In this document: in pieces, positions 3,811 through 38,124 of the stretch | How the letters are laid out: every line of letters starts with the position of its first letter | Numbering within the stretch: position 1 is the stretch's first letter | Source of the DNA: a bacterium | Lineage (GTDB): Bacteria > Patescibacteriota > 4484-211 > GCA-002791395 | Assembly (NCBI GenBank): GCA_027002475.1 | Contig: JALWZS010000030.1 | Location: 1-50,873 of the forward strand | DNA length: 50,873 nucleotides | Direction: 5' to 3' | Made by a program: the position numbers and the translations under genes | Notes under the pieces: generated by a model | What the model saw: the letters and a program-made list of their open reading frames with translations, nothing else | What the model was told of the DNA's origin: nothing | Database searches by the model: none

Positions 3811-3816
3811 ATGCTT

Positions 3817-4434
3817 ATGCGTTTTTCTGATATTGAAATAACACAATTAACTAAAGCATGGCTTGCGATTAGTCTTGCTTTTGCAATAGTTTGGCGACAT
3901 ATGTCGCTTCCGTTTTGGCAAATATATTTGCTTGCAGCACTAACTGTTGCAATTGCTTTTATTACCCATGAGCTTGCACACAAATACGTAGCACAGCGAT
4001 TTGGTTGTTGGGCTGAGTTTAGGAGTTTTGATATGGGGTTAGTCTTAGCGGTTTTGGCTAGCTTGCTACTTGGTATGATATTTGTTGCTCCTGGTGCTGT
4101 TGTCATTAGTGGGGTGGTTACTACCGAAGAAAACGGAAAAATTGCAGCGGCGGGACCTGTTACAAATCTTGTTGTCTCTGCTTTGTTTTGGTTTTTATTG
4201 CAAAGCGCCCCCTTGGTAGATCTTTCGTTTCTGCCTGTTGGTCTTGTTGGTTTTATGTACATGTTTTTTCAAATAGGATTTAGCGTTAGTGCATGGCTGG
4301 CTCTTTTTAATCTAATTCCGTTTGGACCGTTAGATGGTGTTAAGGTTCTCAGGTGGTCGCAGAGTATTTGGTTGGCGTTGATTTTAATTTCGGGAGCGAT
4401 GGTGTTTCTCCTTCCGGGACTAGCAGGCGCTTGA
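3817..4434 (+). CDS. M50-family intramembrane metalloprotease (site-2 protease)
   Basis: Polytopic membrane protein of about 205 residues. The zinc motif HELAH lies in the second hydrophobic segment (ITHELAHKYVAQRFG, near residue 50). The family's NPxxD region appears as AAAGPVTNL, and LIPFGPLDGVKV carries the third metal ligand Asp. This is the compact Rip3/SpoIVFB-like form without PDZ or CBS domains. Such proteases cut transmembrane segments of regulators such as anti-sigma factors; no target is visible nearby. I prefer ATG at 3817 to the in-frame ATG at 3811 because of the -10 spacing. lon follows 33 bases downstream. Confidence 0.88.
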   Translation: MRFSDIEITQLTKAWLAISLAFAIVWRHMSLPFWQIYLLAALTVAIAFITHELAHKYVAQRFGCWAEFRSFDMGLVLAVLASLLLGMIFVAPGAVVISGVVTTEENGKIAAAGPVTNLVVSALFWFLLQSAPLVDLSFLPVGLVGFMYMFFQIGFSVSAWLALFNLIPFGPLDGVKVLRWSQSIWLALILISGAMVFLLPGLAGA

Positions 4435-4467: not shown

Positions 4468-6939
4468 ATGGGTTTGTTTGATCGCAATACTGACAACAAA
4501 AAAAATAAGGGTGCGGCTAGCAGCGCTGTGCGTGGATCGTCAGCGGTGGGGGTTCCAGAGACTCTACCTGTGATTGCTTTGAAGAATACGGTTATATACC
4601 CTCATACCGTAGTGCCTGTATTTTTTGAAGACGAGAACTCGTTAAAGGCGCTTGAGCGCGCGCAGTCTCAAGAAGGTGCCATTGCTGCATTTACTTTAAC
4701 AGAGGAGTCTAGGTTAGCTTTAAGTATGGGTGGAGACGAATCTGCCTCTGATGTTAAGGGTGTATCTAAAACCAAAGATGATTCTCGCTCAAGTGTAGAG
4801 CCTCAGGATTTGTATGGTGTTGGGACCATGTGCCGAATTCATAGGGTTATGCCCGTTACAGGGCGGCATGGCGCAATGGTGGTTTTGCAAGGGGTTGCCA
4901 AAGTGCGAGCGATCGACTTCTGGCGTGACGACTCATTTTTAACTGTTACTCCTATGTTGGAGGAAGATGTTGTAGAAAATAGTAAATCTGTTCAGGCGCT
5001 TATGAGAAATGCGCTTCTTACCGCACAGAAAATTATCGCGAATACTCCCTATATGCCTCAAGAGCTGCAAATCGCGCTGGAGGATCTTACCGATCCGTTA
5101 AAGTTTGTGTACTTACTGGCAACGTTAGTGAGGTTTGATGTCTCGGAAAAGCAAATAATCTTAGAGGAAAGATCTGTGGAGGAGAAGCTCAAAAAAACAG
5201 CTGCTATCCTTTCGCGAGAGCTAGAGCAAATAGAGCTAGGGGGCAAGATAGTGTCAAATGTAAAAAAAGAATTTGGCAAGATGAATCGAGAGGCATTTTT
5301 GCGCCAACAGCTTCGCGAAATACAAAAAGAGTTGGGTGAGGAAAGTGAGGGGCAGCGAGATGCGCGTGAGTATATGGATCGTCTAAACAAAGGCGAGTAT
5401 CCGGATTATGTGAGAAAGGAGTTGGAGCGTGAAATTTCTAGGGTAAGCACGATGCACCCGCAATCGTCTGAGTATCATGTGCTTCGCACCTACATAGATT
5501 TAGTACTTGATTTACCGTGGGGTAAACCAAAGGAAAAAGAATTAGACATAAGCTCGGTTGTTGAAACCCTTGATAAAGATCACTTTGGATTAAAGGATGT
5601 TAAGTTGCGCATAGCGGAATATATGGCTGCACGCAAGCTTAATAAGGAGCATAAAGGACCAATCCTTTGTTTTGTTGGGCCTCCTGGTGTTGGTAAAACT
5701 TCGCTTGGTAAATCTATCGCAAATGCTTTGGGTAGGGAGTTTGTGAGGATTAGCCTTGGCGGGATGCACGACGAGTCGGAGATTCGTGGGCACAGAAGGA
5801 CTTATGTAGGGGCTATGCCAGGCAAAATCATTCAAGGTATTCGTAGGGCTGGAACTCGTAACCCTGTATTTATGTTAGACGAGATTGACAAGATCGGTTC
5901 TGACTTTAAGGGGGATCCTGCCTCGGCATTGCTTGAGGTGCTAGACCCTGAACAAAACAATACTTTTCATGACCACTACCTTGATTTAGATTTTGATTTA
6001 TCGGATGTAATGTTTATCGCAACCGCCAACGTGATGGATACAATACAACCCGCGTTAAGGGATAGGATGGAGGTCATTGAAATTTCAGGCTATGTAAATG
6101 AAGAAAAGATAGAGATTGCAAAGAGTTTCTTATGGCCTAAGGTTCTTAAGGCCCATGGTTTAACAAAGAGTAAAGTGAAAGTGTCAGACGATACTTTAAG
6201 GCTTATTCTTGAGGAATATACTAGAGAGTCGGGGGTGCGTGGTTTTGAAAGGGAGCTTTCTAAGATTGCTCGTAAGGCCGCATACGATTTTGTAACAGGA
6301 AAGTCTAAGACCTTAACCATTAATAAAAAGCGTGTTCGAGAATACCTTGGTCCTCGCAAGGTGTATTCTGAGGTTGCCGCAAGGACGGCAAAGCCTGGTG
6401 TTGCTACTGGACTTGCATATACCCAAGCGGGGGGCGAAATCCTTTTTGTGGAAGCCGTTAGTGTTCCGGGCGGCAGAAGGCTTATGCTTACGGGTTCTCT
6501 GGGGGATGTTATGAAAGAGTCCGCAAAGGCGTCGTTAAGTGTTGTAAAGGCTCGTGCTAAGGCTTTGGGGATAGACGAAAGCTTCTTTAAGAAAAACGAT
6601 ATACATGTACATGTGCCTGCAGGCGCTGTGCCTAAGGACGGACCTAGTGCAGGAGTTACCATTGCAACGGCCATCGTGTCTCTCGCGTTAGGATTGCCTG
6701 TTAGAAATGATGTTGCTATGACGGGGGAGATTACCTTGACGGGCGACGTGTTGCCGATTGGTGGTGTAAAAGAAAAGGTTTTGTCGGCAAAAAGGGCTGG
6801 TATAAAAACGGTCTTGCTTCCGGAGAAGAATAAGCCTGATGTTGAGGAAATAGATAAAGAGCTGCTCGATGGGCTAGAGTTTTTGTATGTGAAGGATGTT
6901 GATGATGTTTTAACGGCGTCGATACGCCGCGACCGATAG
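4468..6939 (+). CDS. lon: ATP-dependent protease Lon
   Basis: Cytosolic AAA+ serine protease that degrades damaged and regulatory proteins. The 823-residue protein is full length. After a poorly conserved polar N-terminus comes the LON substrate domain (LPVIALKNTVIYPHTVVPVF). The AAA+ module has Walker A GPPGVGKTS (about residue 404) and Walker B FMLDEID. The C-terminal protease domain has the catalytic Ser in PKDGPSAGV (about 727) and the Lys in GGVKEK (about 768). The LON domain has an acidic, Ser-rich insertion near residues 90-112. No heat-shock operator is evident. It ends before the candidate RNA at 7066. Confidence 0.97.
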   Translation: MGLFDRNTDNKKNKGAASSAVRGSSAVGVPETLPVIALKNTVIYPHTVVPVFFEDENSLKALERAQSQEGAIAAFTLTEESRLALSMGGDESASDVKGVSKTKDDSRSSVEPQDLYGVGTMCRIHRVMPVTGRHGAMVVLQGVAKVRAIDFWRDDSFLTVTPMLEEDVVENSKSVQALMRNALLTAQKIIANTPYMPQELQIALEDLTDPLKFVYLLATLVRFDVSEKQIILEERSVEEKLKKTAAILSRELEQIELGGKIVSNVKKEFGKMNREAFLRQQLREIQKELGEESEGQRDAREYMDRLNKGEYPDYVRKELEREISRVSTMHPQSSEYHVLRTYIDLVLDLPWGKPKEKELDISSVVETLDKDHFGLKDVKLRIAEYMAARKLNKEHKGPILCFVGPPGVGKTSLGKSIANALGREFVRISLGGMHDESEIRGHRRTYVGAMPGKIIQGIRRAGTRNPVFMLDEIDKIGSDFKGDPASALLEVLDPEQNNTFHDHYLDLDFDLSDVMFIATANVMDTIQPALRDRMEVIEISGYVNEEKIEIAKSFLWPKVLKAHGLTKSKVKVSDDTLRLILEEYTRESGVRGFERELSKIARKAAYDFVTGKSKTLTINKKRVREYLGPRKVYSEVAARTAKPGVATGLAYTQAGGEILFVEAVSVPGGRRLMLTGSLGDVMKESAKASLSVVKARAKALGIDESFFKKNDIHVHVPAGAVPKDGPSAGVTIATAIVSLALGLPVRNDVAMTGEITLTGDVLPIGGVKEKVLSAKRAGIKTVLLPEKNKPDVEEIDKELLDGLEFLYVKDVDDVLTASIRRDR

Positions 6940-7031
6940 GGTGCGGGAAATCCACTAGCGAGAACGACTACTAGTTATAGTCTTTGCGGCGAGCAAAAGC
7001 AGGTAAATGCACAGACTTATCAACACAACGC

Positions 7032-7059
7032 TTGACAGGGTTGACTTCTTTGATATAAT
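7032..7059 (+). promoter_or_regulatory. near-perfect sigma-70 promoter of a candidate small RNA
   Basis: TTGACA (7032-7037), a 16-base spacer and TATAAT (7054-7059): both boxes match consensus. No start codon with a convincing reading frame follows, so the promoter appears to serve the RNA at 7066-7168. Confidence 0.75.
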
Positions 7060-7065
7060 CTATCT

Positions 7066-7168
7066 AGAACATTGAGATACGCCTAGTTCCCAGTGTTTGG
7101 CTTAGAAGGATTAAGTCTCTGACTAGATTCTTTTCTTGGCTGAGCACTTGGAACTGGGCGTATTTTTT
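7066..7168 (+). ncRNA. candidate small structured RNA (rod-like hairpin)
   Basis: Predicted transcript of about 103 bases between lon and the convergent kinase gene. The expected start is 7 bases after a consensus -10. The ends pair over 19 positions: 7077-7095 with 7145-7163, one wobble and one mismatch. The 3' arm runs straight into six Ts (7163-7168), so the outer stem doubles as an intrinsic terminator. Inside, AAGGATTAAGTC can pair loosely with GACTAGATTCTTTTC around a TCT loop, leaving internal loops near 7096-7101 and 7135-7143. A rod with a central bubble recalls 6S RNA, but the length is short for 6S and I see no diagnostic sequence. It lacks the SRP RNA apical motif. Identity unknown. 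Confidence 0.65.
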
Positions 7169-7200: not shown

Positions 7201-9372
7201 TTATTCTTTTATCGGAAGTGTAACAGTAAATGTTGTGCCTTTGTGTACTTGGGATTTAACTTGGATTTTTCCTTTTAACGACTCTACAATCGATTTTGTA
7301 ATGAACAAACCAAGACCTGTGCCCCCTGCTGTTGGGATTTCTACCAATGTTTGTTCTGTTCTAAAGAATTTCGTAAAGAGTTTGGGCATGTCTTCTTTTC
7401 TAATGCCAATGCCGGTATCTTTTACTTTTATAATGACTGAGTCGTCTTTCTGGTCAACGCAAACTGTGACGCCTCCTTCTTGAGTATATTTAATGGCGTT
7501 ACTGATTAGGTTTAATAAGATTTCGTCTAGTTTATCCTTGTCGCTATACATCGTAAGTTTGGTTAACTTCGTTTTTAGTTTTAGAGAAAGTCCTTTTTCT
7601 TTTGCCTTTACCTCTAGCTCCTCAACTAAGTCCTTGACTGTTTCAATTAAGTCAAACTCGGTGTAATCAAACTGTAGGCGCCCATCTTCAATACGTGAGA
7701 CGTCAAGCATGTCGTTTATTATCTGTAGGAGGCGTTCGTTGGATTGAAATGCACGATCTAGTGCCTCTGCTTGCTCTTTGTTGATTGGTCCTTTCTTGCC
7801 TTGCATAACAAGCCAAAGGTAACTTTTAATTATTGAGGCTGGTGTTCTAAGTTCATGTGACGAGATATCAATGATGTAGTCTTTCATTTTATCTACTTGT
7901 TTGAGTTTGTTGTAAGCGTCTTGTAGCTCTTTGGTTGCTTCTTCGACGCGTTGTTTGAGTTCGTCGTTAAATTGAAGTTCCCTTTCGTATAGGACCACAT
8001 TTTCTAGAGCGTTTGATAGGTGATAGCGTAGGGTATCAAGCATGTCTATCTCTTGTGTTGAGTATGCACCATTGTTAGCTTTGTGAGAAAGTAGCAATAA
8101 ACTCGGTTGAGAACTTTTTCTTGGAATAGGGAGACATACCGCAATATTAAGCTTTTGTAGCAAGTTATATATCTCACTAAGTCTAGACCGTTCTTCTATT
8201 GATTCGTCTGAAACACGTTCTTTTAATTCATCGATTATGTATATTGTTGGGTCTTTTATTAATAGGTCAATTAACTGCTTTGTTTCTTTTCTATGAGACT
8301 TTTTAATCAGCTTGCCAACTATTTCTAATTTCGAGTTTTCAGTCTCGGTATAGGCTATAGATACTTTTTCGACGTAGAGCATGTTTTTTAGATTTGAAGT
8401 TAGTGTTTTGCACAAACCTTCAATGTTGAGCGATTGGGTTATTTCTTCTTGTAGTTTTTTAAATTGCCTAGAAAGTGGCGGTTTTTTAAAAACATGAATG
8501 TCTACAAATTCGTGTAGTGGTCTGTTTGTATTATCGTTAATAAATACGGTTAGAATCGCCGCTATGGTTGCTGTAATGATGTAGCCAGGAAGGTTGATCG
8601 GTTCATGAAAGTACATGCTGTAGGCAGCAACTAGGATTAAGTACAGTCCAAGAAGTAGTAACGTCCTAACCACTCGTGTAATCGCTTCTTCTAAGACCAC
8701 TCGTGTGTCCATAAAGCGATATTTCAACATGGCATATGAGATGGTTAGGGGATAAGCGATTATCAGGTAGTTTCCAATAGGTTCCATTGGGATGTTGTAC
8801 CAAAGAGGAAAGTTGGTTAGTCCGCAGATTTGACCTATTAATAAGCCTGCGACAACAATTCTTAGGCGTTGCCGATTGATACCGGTTACTTTTTGGGAGT
8901 TAATTAAAATTCGAATTAGTCCGAAACTACTTAGTCCAAAGAAATGTATAAGTGCGAAAATAATGTAAACCGACCCTGGAACTGGCCAGTATGGGAAGAG
9001 TAATCGCGGCTCGACTCCTTGTATCATTAAGCTCGTTGGCGTAAGTAATACAAAGAGTATGGTTTGAACAATAATTATCTTAACGAGATTTTTAAATCGA
9101 TTTAGTTCGTTAAGAAAGGTTAGTATCCATATAACAAAACTTGTTGGGATCAATACTGAGCCAACTGTTAAAACTCGTATCCAGAAAAGCGCAACGGATG
9201 GATCTGCTGCCATTTGCCATTGCCAATAGCCAAATGCCCATATTGCGACAGAGAAGTTAAAGTAAGCTAATCGTCGGTGTTGTGTGCTTCTGAAGCGATA
9301 TAGTAAAAGCGTGACCCCAAGAAGGAGGGCTCCAATAAAGTTTATAAAGCTAATTATTGCGTAGCTTTGCAT
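7201..9372 (-). CDS. membrane sensor histidine kinase (7TM-GAF-HisKA-HATPase)
   Basis: A 723-residue sensor kinase. The N-terminal third has about nine hydrophobic segments (7TM-type sensor region plus an extra pair near residues 235-285). A GAF-like domain follows (about 320-460), then a coiled coil (ELKQRVEEATKELQDAYNKL). The HisKA dimerisation domain has the phospho-acceptor in SSHELRTP (His near 506). The ATPase has N-box NLISNAIKYT, G1 DTGIGI, F box FTKFFR and G2 GGTGLGL. No response regulator is encoded in this window, so its partner is elsewhere. The start is 10 bases after the methyltransferase stop, indicating co-transcription with the methyltransferase and probably the sortase. Confidence 0.92.
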   Translation of the reverse strand: MQSYAIISFINFIGALLLGVTLLLYRFRSTQHRRLAYFNFSVAIWAFGYWQWQMAADPSVALFWIRVLTVGSVLIPTSFVIWILTFLNELNRFKNLVKIIIVQTILFVLLTPTSLMIQGVEPRLLFPYWPVPGSVYIIFALIHFFGLSSFGLIRILINSQKVTGINRQRLRIVVAGLLIGQICGLTNFPLWYNIPMEPIGNYLIIAYPLTISYAMLKYRFMDTRVVLEEAITRVVRTLLLLGLYLILVAAYSMYFHEPINLPGYIITATIAAILTVFINDNTNRPLHEFVDIHVFKKPPLSRQFKKLQEEITQSLNIEGLCKTLTSNLKNMLYVEKVSIAYTETENSKLEIVGKLIKKSHRKETKQLIDLLIKDPTIYIIDELKERVSDESIEERSRLSEIYNLLQKLNIAVCLPIPRKSSQPSLLLLSHKANNGAYSTQEIDMLDTLRYHLSNALENVVLYERELQFNDELKQRVEEATKELQDAYNKLKQVDKMKDYIIDISSHELRTPASIIKSYLWLVMQGKKGPINKEQAEALDRAFQSNERLLQIINDMLDVSRIEDGRLQFDYTEFDLIETVKDLVEELEVKAKEKGLSLKLKTKLTKLTMYSDKDKLDEILLNLISNAIKYTQEGGVTVCVDQKDDSVIIKVKDTGIGIRKEDMPKLFTKFFRTEQTLVEIPTAGGTGLGLFITKSIVESLKGKIQVKSQVHKGTTFTVTLPIKE

Positions 9373-29762: not shown

Positions 29763-31403
<1,641 letters not shown>

Positions 31404-34745: not shown

Positions 34746-35266
34746 ACATTTTAGGTTAAATAATGCGTTAAGGGCGTACAGTGGATGCCTTGGCGGAAAA
34801 TGCCGATGAAGGACGTGGCAAGTCGACGAAATGCTTCGGGGAGCTGACATGCAAGCTTTGATCCGGAGATGTCCGAATGGGGAAACCTACCAAAGTAAAC
34901 CTTTGGTGCTGCGCACTGAAATTTTGCATGTTCGCATGTGATTACTAGGTGTGTAGCGGGAACCCGGCGAACTGAATCATCTAAGTAACCGGAGGAAAGG
35001 AAAGTAACATGGATCAACTTTGTTGATTCTACGATTCCCTTAGTAGCGGCGAGCGAAACGGGACCAGCCCGCGGATGAAATTTACGATGTTTATTAGTGG
35101 AACTACTTGGAATCGGTAGGCCATAGAGAGCAAACGCCTCGTACACGAAAATAAACATCTGATTTCCGCTGTGCAATTTCTTCGGAGATTGCATATGAGT
35201 AGCATGGGACACGTGAAATCCTGTGTGAATATAGGAGGACCTCCTCCTAAGGCTAAATACATTTTC

Positions 35267-35307
<41 letters not shown>

Positions 35308-35366
35308 CACCCCGGTGAGGGGAGTGAAATAGATCCTGAAACTGTACGTCTACAAGCAGTCGACGC

Positions 35367-35537
35367 TCGTGCGTGGCACGAGCAAATTCTAAACTGCTCA
35401 AACTCGAAACGACAAACGTTTTAATAACTTGATATGCAAGCGGACACAGTCTTTGTTTGTGTTCTCTGCGCTTAAGTTTTTGTGTTTGTTTTTTGGGGTT
35501 TGTTTATTAGGATTTGCTCACGCTGCGCGTGAGCTAC
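35367..35537 (+). repeat. 23S intervening sequence 1 (helix 25), twin of IVS 2
   Basis: About 171 bases inserted between CGACGC and GGCGTG. Each end carries a 19-base hairpin, an 8-bp stem with 3-base loop: GCTCGTGC-GTG-GCACGAGC and GCTCACGC-TGC-GCGTGAGC. Just inside, AGCAAATTCTAA pairs with TTAGGATTTGCT. The interior is A/C-rich on the left (ACTCGAAACGACAAAC) and T/G-rich on the right. No reading frame for an S23-type four-helix-bundle protein is present. Likely excised or left as an rRNA break. Confidence 0.8.
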
Positions 35538-36052
35538 GGCGTGTCTTTTGGAGCATAAGCCGGTGAGCGGCTCGTGAGTTGCAAGTCTAAGAGAGTTACT
35601 CTCGGAGGCGAAGGGAAACCGAGTGGTGTTAATAGCGCCCGACAGTTTCTTCGGAAACTTTACAGCAGCTTGCGGCCGGCCCGAAACCGAGTGAGCTATC
35701 CATGGCCAGGGTGAAAGCAAGGTAACACTTGCCGGAGGCCCGAACCGGTGTACGTTGAAAAGTGCTCGGATGAGCTGTGGATAGAAGTGAAATGCCAAAC
35801 GGACTCGGATATAGCTGGTTCTCCCCGAAATGGTTTTAAGGCCAGCGTCGTCCTACTCTTTATCTGGGGTAGAGCTACTGGATGGGTGTCAGGTGGGCAA
35901 CTGTCTGCATCCAACCAAACTCCGAATACAGATAAAATTATGACGGCAAGTTAGAGTGTGAGGGCTAAGCTTCATACTCGAAAGGGAAACAACCCAGATC
36001 GTACGCTAAGGTCCCTAAATCTTATCTCAGTGGGAAAGGAAGTTTTATTGCT

Positions 36053-36117
<65 letters not shown>

Positions 36118-36194
36118 AAGTGTCCCGATTCGTCGGGACGGGCAATGAAGCGCCGAAAATTTAACGGGGCTTAAGGTAAGTACCGAAGCGACGG

Positions 36195-36338
36195 ATCTTT
36201 CGCTAGAGACTCTAGATGGTTAGCCCATCCTTCACTAAAGTTACGGAGGGTCATCCTTCACCAGGAATGGTTGGGGTGTGATAGCCGACACTATAGTGAG
36301 AATGATGGTTTGCCATCCGAAGCCTCTGGCGAAGGATG
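36195..36338 (+). other. 23S insertion in helix 45
   Basis: About 140 bases where E. coli has a hairpin of about 25. It contains a forward copy of the CTTCGCTAAAGC hairpin (about 36224-36250) and a reverse-oriented copy (36313-36339). CCATCCTTCACTA near its left can also pair with TAGTGAGAATGATGG near its right. No sequence likeness to the other two insertions. Boundaries approximate. Confidence 0.65.
36224..36250 (+). repeat. CTTCGCTAAAGC hairpin, copy 4 (inside 23S)
   Basis: CCCATCCTTCACTAAAGTTACGGAGGG: the core TTCACTAAAGTTACGG differs from copy 1 by paired changes (GCT/AGC to ACT/AGT). Confidence 0.55.
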
Positions 36339-36339
36339 G
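36313..36339 (-). repeat. CTTCGC...GGCTTCGG hairpin, copy 5 (inside 23S, reverse)
   Basis: On the reverse strand CCATCC-TTCGCCAGAGGCTTC-GGATGG: same outline (stem, TTCGC, loop, GCTTCGG) in the opposite orientation to copy 4. Confidence 0.5.
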
Positions 36340-36765
36340 TAGGGGAGCGTTCTATAGGCGTTGAAGGAGAACCGTGAGGTTCTTTGGAGCGTATAGAAGT
36401 GAGAATGCACGGCATGAGTAACGCAAGGTCGCAGAGATTGCGACCCACCGAATACCCAAGGTTTCCGCAGCACTGGACATCAGCTGCGGGTTAGGCGGTC
36501 CTAAGGCGAGGCCGAAAGGCGTAGTCGATGGACAGACGGTTAATATTCCGTCCCCCACGTGACGCTTGCAGACAGGGGACGCATTGAAACGGTTCGCTTG
36601 CGAGCTAAAGTAGGTGCCAAGAAAAGCCTGTTCTGCGCTAAGCCCACGTGGTCCGTACCGCAAACCGACACAGGTGGGTGGGGTGAGTAGCCTAAGGTGA
36701 TCGAGATAACCATTGCTAAGGAACTCGGCAAATTGCTGTCGTAACTTAGGGAGAAGGCAGCCCTT

Positions 36766-36875
36766 GCTTGTGTGTTGCACAAGCAAATTCGAAGCACGAA
36801 ACTACAAACTATACAAACGACGCGTTTGGTATTTGTACGTTTGTGTTTTGGGATTTGCTCGCGCAGCACGCGAGT
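36766..36875 (+). repeat. 23S intervening sequence 2 (helix 63), twin of IVS 1
   Basis: 110-base insertion with the same plan as IVS 1. The 19-base end hairpins are GCTTGTGT-GTT-GCACAAGC and GCTCGCGCAGCACGCGAGT. AAATTCGAA follows the first and GGGATTT precedes the second. An A/C-rich left side (GCACGAAACTACAAACTATA) faces a T/G-rich right side. It is shorter in the middle than IVS 1 and has no reading frame. Confidence 0.8.
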
Positions 36876-37075
36876 TGGGGGGCACAAACCAGGCTCTTAC
36901 GACTGTTTATCAAAAACACAGGTCTCTGCTAACCAGTAATGGGATGTATAGAGGCTGACGCCTGCCCAATGCCGGAAGGTTAAAGAAGGGGGTGGCTGGT
37001 TTACTTCGGTAAACCTTCTGCTTTCGACTGAAGCCCCGGTGAATGGCAGCAGTAACTATAACTGTTCTAAGGTAC

Positions 37076-37108
<33 letters not shown>

Positions 37109-37640
37109 GGAAAGGCGTAACGAGAAGAGCACTGTCTTCAGCAATGGGCTCGGTGAAATTGCAATACCCGTGAAGATGCGGGTTTCCCACACCAGGACAA
37201 AAAGACCCCGTGGAGCTTTACTATAGCTTGGCATTGTTATGGGGTTTAACATGTGTAGCGTAACGGGGAGACTTTGAAGGAGGGGCGCCAGCTTCTCTGG
37301 AGTCGCCAATGAAACACCCGTCTTGTTAGACTTTATAACTAACCTTAGGCCGTGAATCCGGTCTGGGGACATTGTCTGGCAGGTAGTTTATCTGGGGCGG
37401 ATGCCTGGCAAAAGATAACCCAGGTGCCCAAAGGTTCTCTTACTCCGGATGGAAATCGGAGCGCAAGTGTAAAGGCAAAAGAGAGCTTGACTGTGAGGCA
37501 GACATGCCGAACAGGAGCGAAAGCTGGGCTTAATGATCCTGCCTATCGTAGAGGTATGGAGGCAGCTTATCGGATAACAGTTACCCCGGGGATAACAGAG
37601 TGGTCGCGCCCAATAGCCCGAATTGCCGGCGCGGTTCGCT

Positions 37641-37673
<33 letters not shown>

Positions 37674-37694
37674 TAGCAGGTCCCAAGGGTTGGT

Positions 37695-37731
<37 letters not shown>

Positions 37732-38124
37732 AACCGTCGTGAGACAGGTTGGTCTCTATCCGGTGTGGGCGTAGGAAGGTTTGAGAGGACATCCCGCTAG
37801 TACGAGAGGACCGTGGGGTGCGAACCTCTAGTGTATGAGTTATCCTAGTTCTTCGAACTAAGCTAACTACTGAGTTTTGTAAGGCAAAACGTCAACAGTT
37901 GTTGGTTTAAATCGAAGGATTAGGGTATTGCTCAGTAGCTACGTTCGTTTAGGATAAGCGCTGAAGGCATATAAGCGCGAAGCCGTCCTCAAGATTAAAC
38001 CTAATCTCCGCTTCGGCGGAGTGCGATTCCCTAGGAGATTACTAGGTTAATAGGTGGCAGGTGTAAGTGCAGTAATGTATTTAGCCGAGCCATACTAATG
38101 AATCGTTTCATTATTTAACCTTGC

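Follow-up and report, generated by a model that had tools for sequence, protein, structure and literature searches.

Bacterial Y RNAs such as YrlA have a stem made of their 5' and 3' ends, a conserved two-strand protein site and a variable apical part. The same general layout, with a putative protein site, was found in a rod-shaped RNA gene predicted at positions 7066-7168 (+) of the window analysed here, a stretch of 50,873 nt (50.9 kb) from a small-genome member of the Patescibacteria. Y RNA/YrlA is the nearest analogue of the mode of action proposed below, but the rod has no Rfam match and no adjacent Ro gene. 6S RNA (RF00013) is likewise rod-like and, as predicted for the rod, an independently transcribed small RNA, but the rod has no RF00013 match even at E 10, is about half the length of 6S RNA, and is paired in its core where an open central bubble would be expected. 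The bacterial small SRP RNA (RF00169) is also a hairpin of ~100 nt with a conserved two-strand module, but the rod does not match it (domain IV) and has a variable apical stem. CcnA of Caulobacter is a small RNA whose gene carries DnaA-box sequences; it is located in the origin, has a link to CtrA and works through base pairing (PMC8959179). No sequence relation to the rod is claimed. Comparison of the rod locus with Rfam by cmscan, which had been proposed in a preliminary description of this DNA, gave no significant match to a known family, neither at the gathering threshold nor at E 10, only sub-threshold noise, mostly from microRNA precursors.

Identity of the rod with SRP RNA was rejected, since, besides the missing RF00169 match, neither SRP RNA nor the Ffh M domain was found in the clade. 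SRP RNA was found in none of the 8 genomes of the class, with one sub-threshold match in 59 genomes of the phylum, and the M domain (PF02978) in none of 24 genomes, including the window's own, against 14 of 14 controls. Taken together, the SRP RNA and Ffh searches were positive in 12-14 of the 14 control genomes. Across the phylum Patescibacteria, the entire signal recognition particle may be absent or not recognisable.

The site lies between convergent genes for lon protease (4468-6939, +) and a 7TM histidine kinase (7201-9372, -), as described earlier and now confirmed by Pfam. Previously called near-perfect, the promoter sequence at 7032-7059 (+), TTGACA-N16-TATAAT, matches the consensus in 12 of 12 positions; it is of the extended -10 type (TG), and its predicted start is at about 7066. 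No other promoter in the window is perfect, and shuffled sequences (spacing 15-19) give an expectation of 0.12 per window. The predicted transcript of ~103 nt (model R2, 89.3 bits) ends in the six Ts already recognised (7163-7168), and these, with the 3' strand of the outer stem, make up a built-in intrinsic terminator (7150-7168, +). The segment folds at -53.6 kcal/mol, compared with a mean of -23.4 for shuffles (z -9.8; reached by none of 200), and in a 100-nt fold scan of the window the rod was the strongest structure (-51.3 kcal/mol; runner-up -41.0). The 5' strand of the outer stem (7076-7090, +) pairs with 7150-7164 and varies among species with compensatory changes. Above it stands a core module, whose 5' arm CCAGUGUUUGG (7090-7100, +) is identical in all six homologs described below, and whose 3' arm CUGAGCACUUGGA (7140-7152, +), in which a single species has an R at one site, is joined to the 5' arm by invariant G-U wobbles. 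The apical stem-loop (7102-7136, +) is variable in sequence and length (33-107 nt between the arms) with its pairing kept. The earlier picture of a rod with a built-in terminator was right in outline; the paired positions are however ~28 instead of 19, in two stacked segments, and the supposed central bubble was not recovered, as the rod is paired throughout with only one C-U mismatch and a bulge of 2-3 nt at its centre.

A DNA search of 58 genomes gave one clear homolog from the same family, plus fragments in the same order. Covariance model R1, built from four copies, added those of G007 and G006, and model R2, run on the 8 genomes of the class (Patescibacteria, CPR3/WWE3-labelled), recovered all six homologs at 72-91 bits with one locus per genome. 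The carriers belong to two families, f1 with the window (G000) and G001, and f2 with G003, G005, G006, and G007. In each of the six the rod comes immediately after lon, in the same orientation; the suggested search for a lon-adjacent RNA in relatives thus yielded a single-copy homolog in six of the eight class genomes. The assembly of G002 has no lon ortholog and in G004 the gene runs off the end of its contig, and since neither has an assembled lon 3' end, the rod is present in 6/6 testable genomes. The conserved block consists of an M50 peptidase gene (3811-4434, +; Pfam), lon and the RNA, while genes past the RNA differ between families, the convergent kinase being a neighbour only in f1.

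Outside the class, R1 run over 380 genomes of the phylum gave nothing beyond palindromes of the TTAGTGCTTAGTG type and weak, AT-rich matches. Two matches on contigs from outside the phylum (Acidobacteria and Bacillota) were discarded as chance-expected and without rod architecture, and no rod homolog was found in viral contigs. No such RNA was seen in 700 bases beside lon of three other Patescibacteria, although the downstream side is uncertain for the two minus-strand genes among them. Genomes of family f18 (L040, L041, L042, L048-L051) contain multiple intergenic palindromes of TTAGTGCTTAGTG-like units, four of them within 14 kb in G190.

Covariation, which the preliminary description had suggested looking for in relatives, was strong. 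In the six-sequence alignment (A3), where 24 pairs belonging to core and outer stem were scored, 98.6% of cells were paired and nine of the 24 pairs showed double-sided changes (19 cells). The covariation score was reached by none of 500 shuffles, and sliding the partners lowered pairing to 28-54%. RNAalifold, run without a supplied structure, returned the same rod and apical stem, with compensatory changes in 17 of 33 pairs. G-U pairs accounted for 29 of 144 pair cells, and the opposite strand would have A-C mismatches in these positions; the plus strand is thus the functional one, in agreement with the covariance model scores (96.7 bits on the plus and 41.5 bits on the minus strand). Palindromic repeats like those of f18 show that mobile, MITE-like elements or a chance hairpin have to be considered, but the rod is single-copy, syntenic and covarying, with a conserved promoter. 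Covariation together with synteny refutes such an origin, and we regard its probability as negligible. Judging from covariation, synteny and promoter conservation, 7066-7168 is almost certainly a conserved RNA gene. A predicted promoter of its own, a predicted terminator of its own and a covarying structure, the features looked for in an independent structured small RNA gene, were all found, so that the unassigned rod RNA with promoter and terminator initially described is now supported by six homologs and their covariation.

The two families differ in how the rod appears to be transcribed and terminated. In f1, a strong predicted promoter stands immediately before the rod, which would also serve as terminator. 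In f2, the -10 is located 81-98 nt before the core, which predicts that the rod is preceded by a leader of ~60-80 nt. Those f2 copies in which termination was traced have a terminator hairpin of their own downstream of the rod; a hairpin passing directly into a T tract is thus not common to all homologs. In G006 the extended -10 is clear, with no TTGACA at normal spacing. A -10-like hexamer was found exactly 35 nt before the DnaA-box-like site (see below) in all six homologs, weak in f1: the slot holds TATAAT in G003, G005, and G006, TATAGT in G007, TATGGC in G001, and TATAGT in the window (6976-6981, +). The window hexamer stands where f2 has its functional-looking -10 (TATAAT/TATAGT), and is probably the relic of a promoter, P1. 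The earlier statement that the RNA is not a leader agrees with the absence of a same-strand gene after the rod in the window, and with the rod's own or a following terminator ending the RNA where traced.

The position of the rod, always downstream of lon, could also mean that it terminates lon mRNA and stabilises its 3' end instead of being an RNA gene, the more so as the f1 rod ends in a T tract and the window has no other terminator between lon and rod. We find this improbable, because promoter-like sequence lies between lon and the rod in 6/6 genomes, a separate terminator follows the f2 rod, and invariant arm sequences are unnecessary for a terminator; with the whole M50-lon-RNA block conserved, proximity need not mean function. 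The persistence of the rod in f2 beside a separate terminator indicates selection on the rod itself rather than on a terminator.

The core arms, CCAGUGUUUGG and CUGARCACUUGGA (11 + 13 bases), are near-invariant inside an otherwise changing rod in the six sequences. Their pairing comprises fixed U-G, U-A, U-G, and G-U steps plus the C-U mismatch, and they stayed nearly unchanged while everything around them in the rod changed and lon identity between families is only 53-58%. With the arms paired to one another and the loop sequences variable, there is no conserved unpaired seed. Near-invariance is nevertheless what would be expected of a seed, and six sequences are few, so that it could instead reflect pairing with a conserved mRNA or rRNA target by a trans-acting small RNA, one arm of which is freed from the rod. 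That the RNA works in this way is unlikely, given that a very stable rod keeps both arms paired, that the exposed loops vary, and that the arms were no more complementary to 16S, 23S, and 5S rRNA than shuffled arms. The 12 bases shared by the rod and 23S rRNA, pointed out earlier as possibly fortuitous, are indeed present (23S copy at 36068) and the match is a chance one, as none of the five homologs aligned best there. Mimicry of the GTPase-associated centre was rejected, the match to 23S H42-44 being confined to the window copy (p 0.045) and absent in the other five. As to the rRNA genes of the window, 16S (29763-31403, 1641 nt) and 23S (34758-38118, 3361 nt) are longer than usual and thus contain insertions, and genes for an M20 peptidase and an epimerase are found between them together with tRNAs.

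A 6S-like role, in which the RNA would occupy RNA polymerase, had been put forward as one possibility, and is in line with the rod shape, with a promoter suggestive of abundance and with the lack of a 6S match in the window's own genome. We consider it quite improbable: no Rfam 6S match was obtained at any threshold, the rod has half the length and no open bubble, and three carriers, G003, G005, and G006, have in addition to the rod a separate conserved 6S-like RNA with a predicted promoter of its own beside rpmB. The idea is thus left unsupported. The 6S-like loci (L077 1490-1660; L081 1792-2030; L082 1040-1292, minus strand) have near-identical ends, CCTACCGTG..CGTGA..AAGG and GTCCATACGGCAC, which resemble those of an accepted 6S RNA of the phylum, and only the G006 copy scores in Rfam 6S, weakly and below the cut-off. 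In the f1 genomes, including the window's own, no 6S RNA was detected.

A stable rod, no conserved exposed loop and an invariant, wobble-rich two-strand module at fixed depth together point to the anatomy of a protein-binding RNA. We propose that the predicted strong extended -10 promoter drives an independent rod RNA, the core of which would be the docking site of one RNA-binding protein, with the outer stem presenting and protecting the core. The RNA may then be abundant and stable and serve the protein as a decoy or scaffold, and not act via base pairing with mRNA. Docking at the core has, in our judgement, about an even chance of being the mechanism. The arguments are similarly balanced for the full proposal, that the rod is a new clade-specific structured small RNA, predicted to be independently transcribed and to carry a protein-docking core.

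The window carries a DnaA-box-like site, TTATCAACA (7017-7025, +), one mismatch from TTATCCACA and 6 nt upstream of the -35. Each of the six homologs has one copy of TTRTCCACA, allowing one mismatch, in the same orientation and 46-76 nt ahead of the core, three of the copies carrying the mismatch; at this stringency the word has only six occurrences on this strand in the 50.9 kb of the window. Its position relative to the strong promoter differs, upstream of the -35 in f1 and 35 nt after the -10 in f2. Participation of the box in a hairpin of the leader RNA was rejected, since the signal (combined p 0.012) is driven by one species. Pairs of TTATCCACA flank the -35 of dnaA in G003, G005, G006, and G007, while the reversed control pattern gave none, and in G000 such pairs lie between dnaA and dnaN, both genes recognised from translated frames. 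The same word at dnaA in these genomes makes the box a plausible DnaA box. In the dnaA promoters themselves (L089-L092, ~1501-1535) a TTATCCACA box lies on either side of the -35 TTGACA, at a spacing that is fixed across four genera, an arrangement that looks like DnaA autoregulation.

Conservation of the box could also be taken as a sign of a DNA-level replication element, made up of a DnaA box, transcription and a cruciform, which does not act as RNA. We hold this to be very improbable, as there is a single box, GC skew shows no sign change and hence no replication-origin switch in the window, TTATCCACA clusters are at dnaA on other contigs, and the conserved G-U pairs are strand-specific and favour RNA. 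For the proposed rod RNA, and with less weight than the docking itself, DnaA might tune transcription through the conserved box near the promoter; we see such control via the predicted box as a tentative possibility, which we would rather doubt than expect. A replication-coupled regulatory RNA, in which DnaA-controlled synthesis of a protein-binding RNA would tie a basic process to the replication cycle, is less likely still.

To our knowledge, candidate-phyla bacteria have few known regulators. Few non-coding RNAs have been described for CPR/Patescibacteria, and our literature searches found no survey. The rod represents an RNA family that is compact, strongly supported and absent from Rfam, and every genome of the class with an assembled site has it. 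The invariant two-strand core is a ready bait for a partner search, and the conserved DnaA-box-like site makes the link to replication directly testable.
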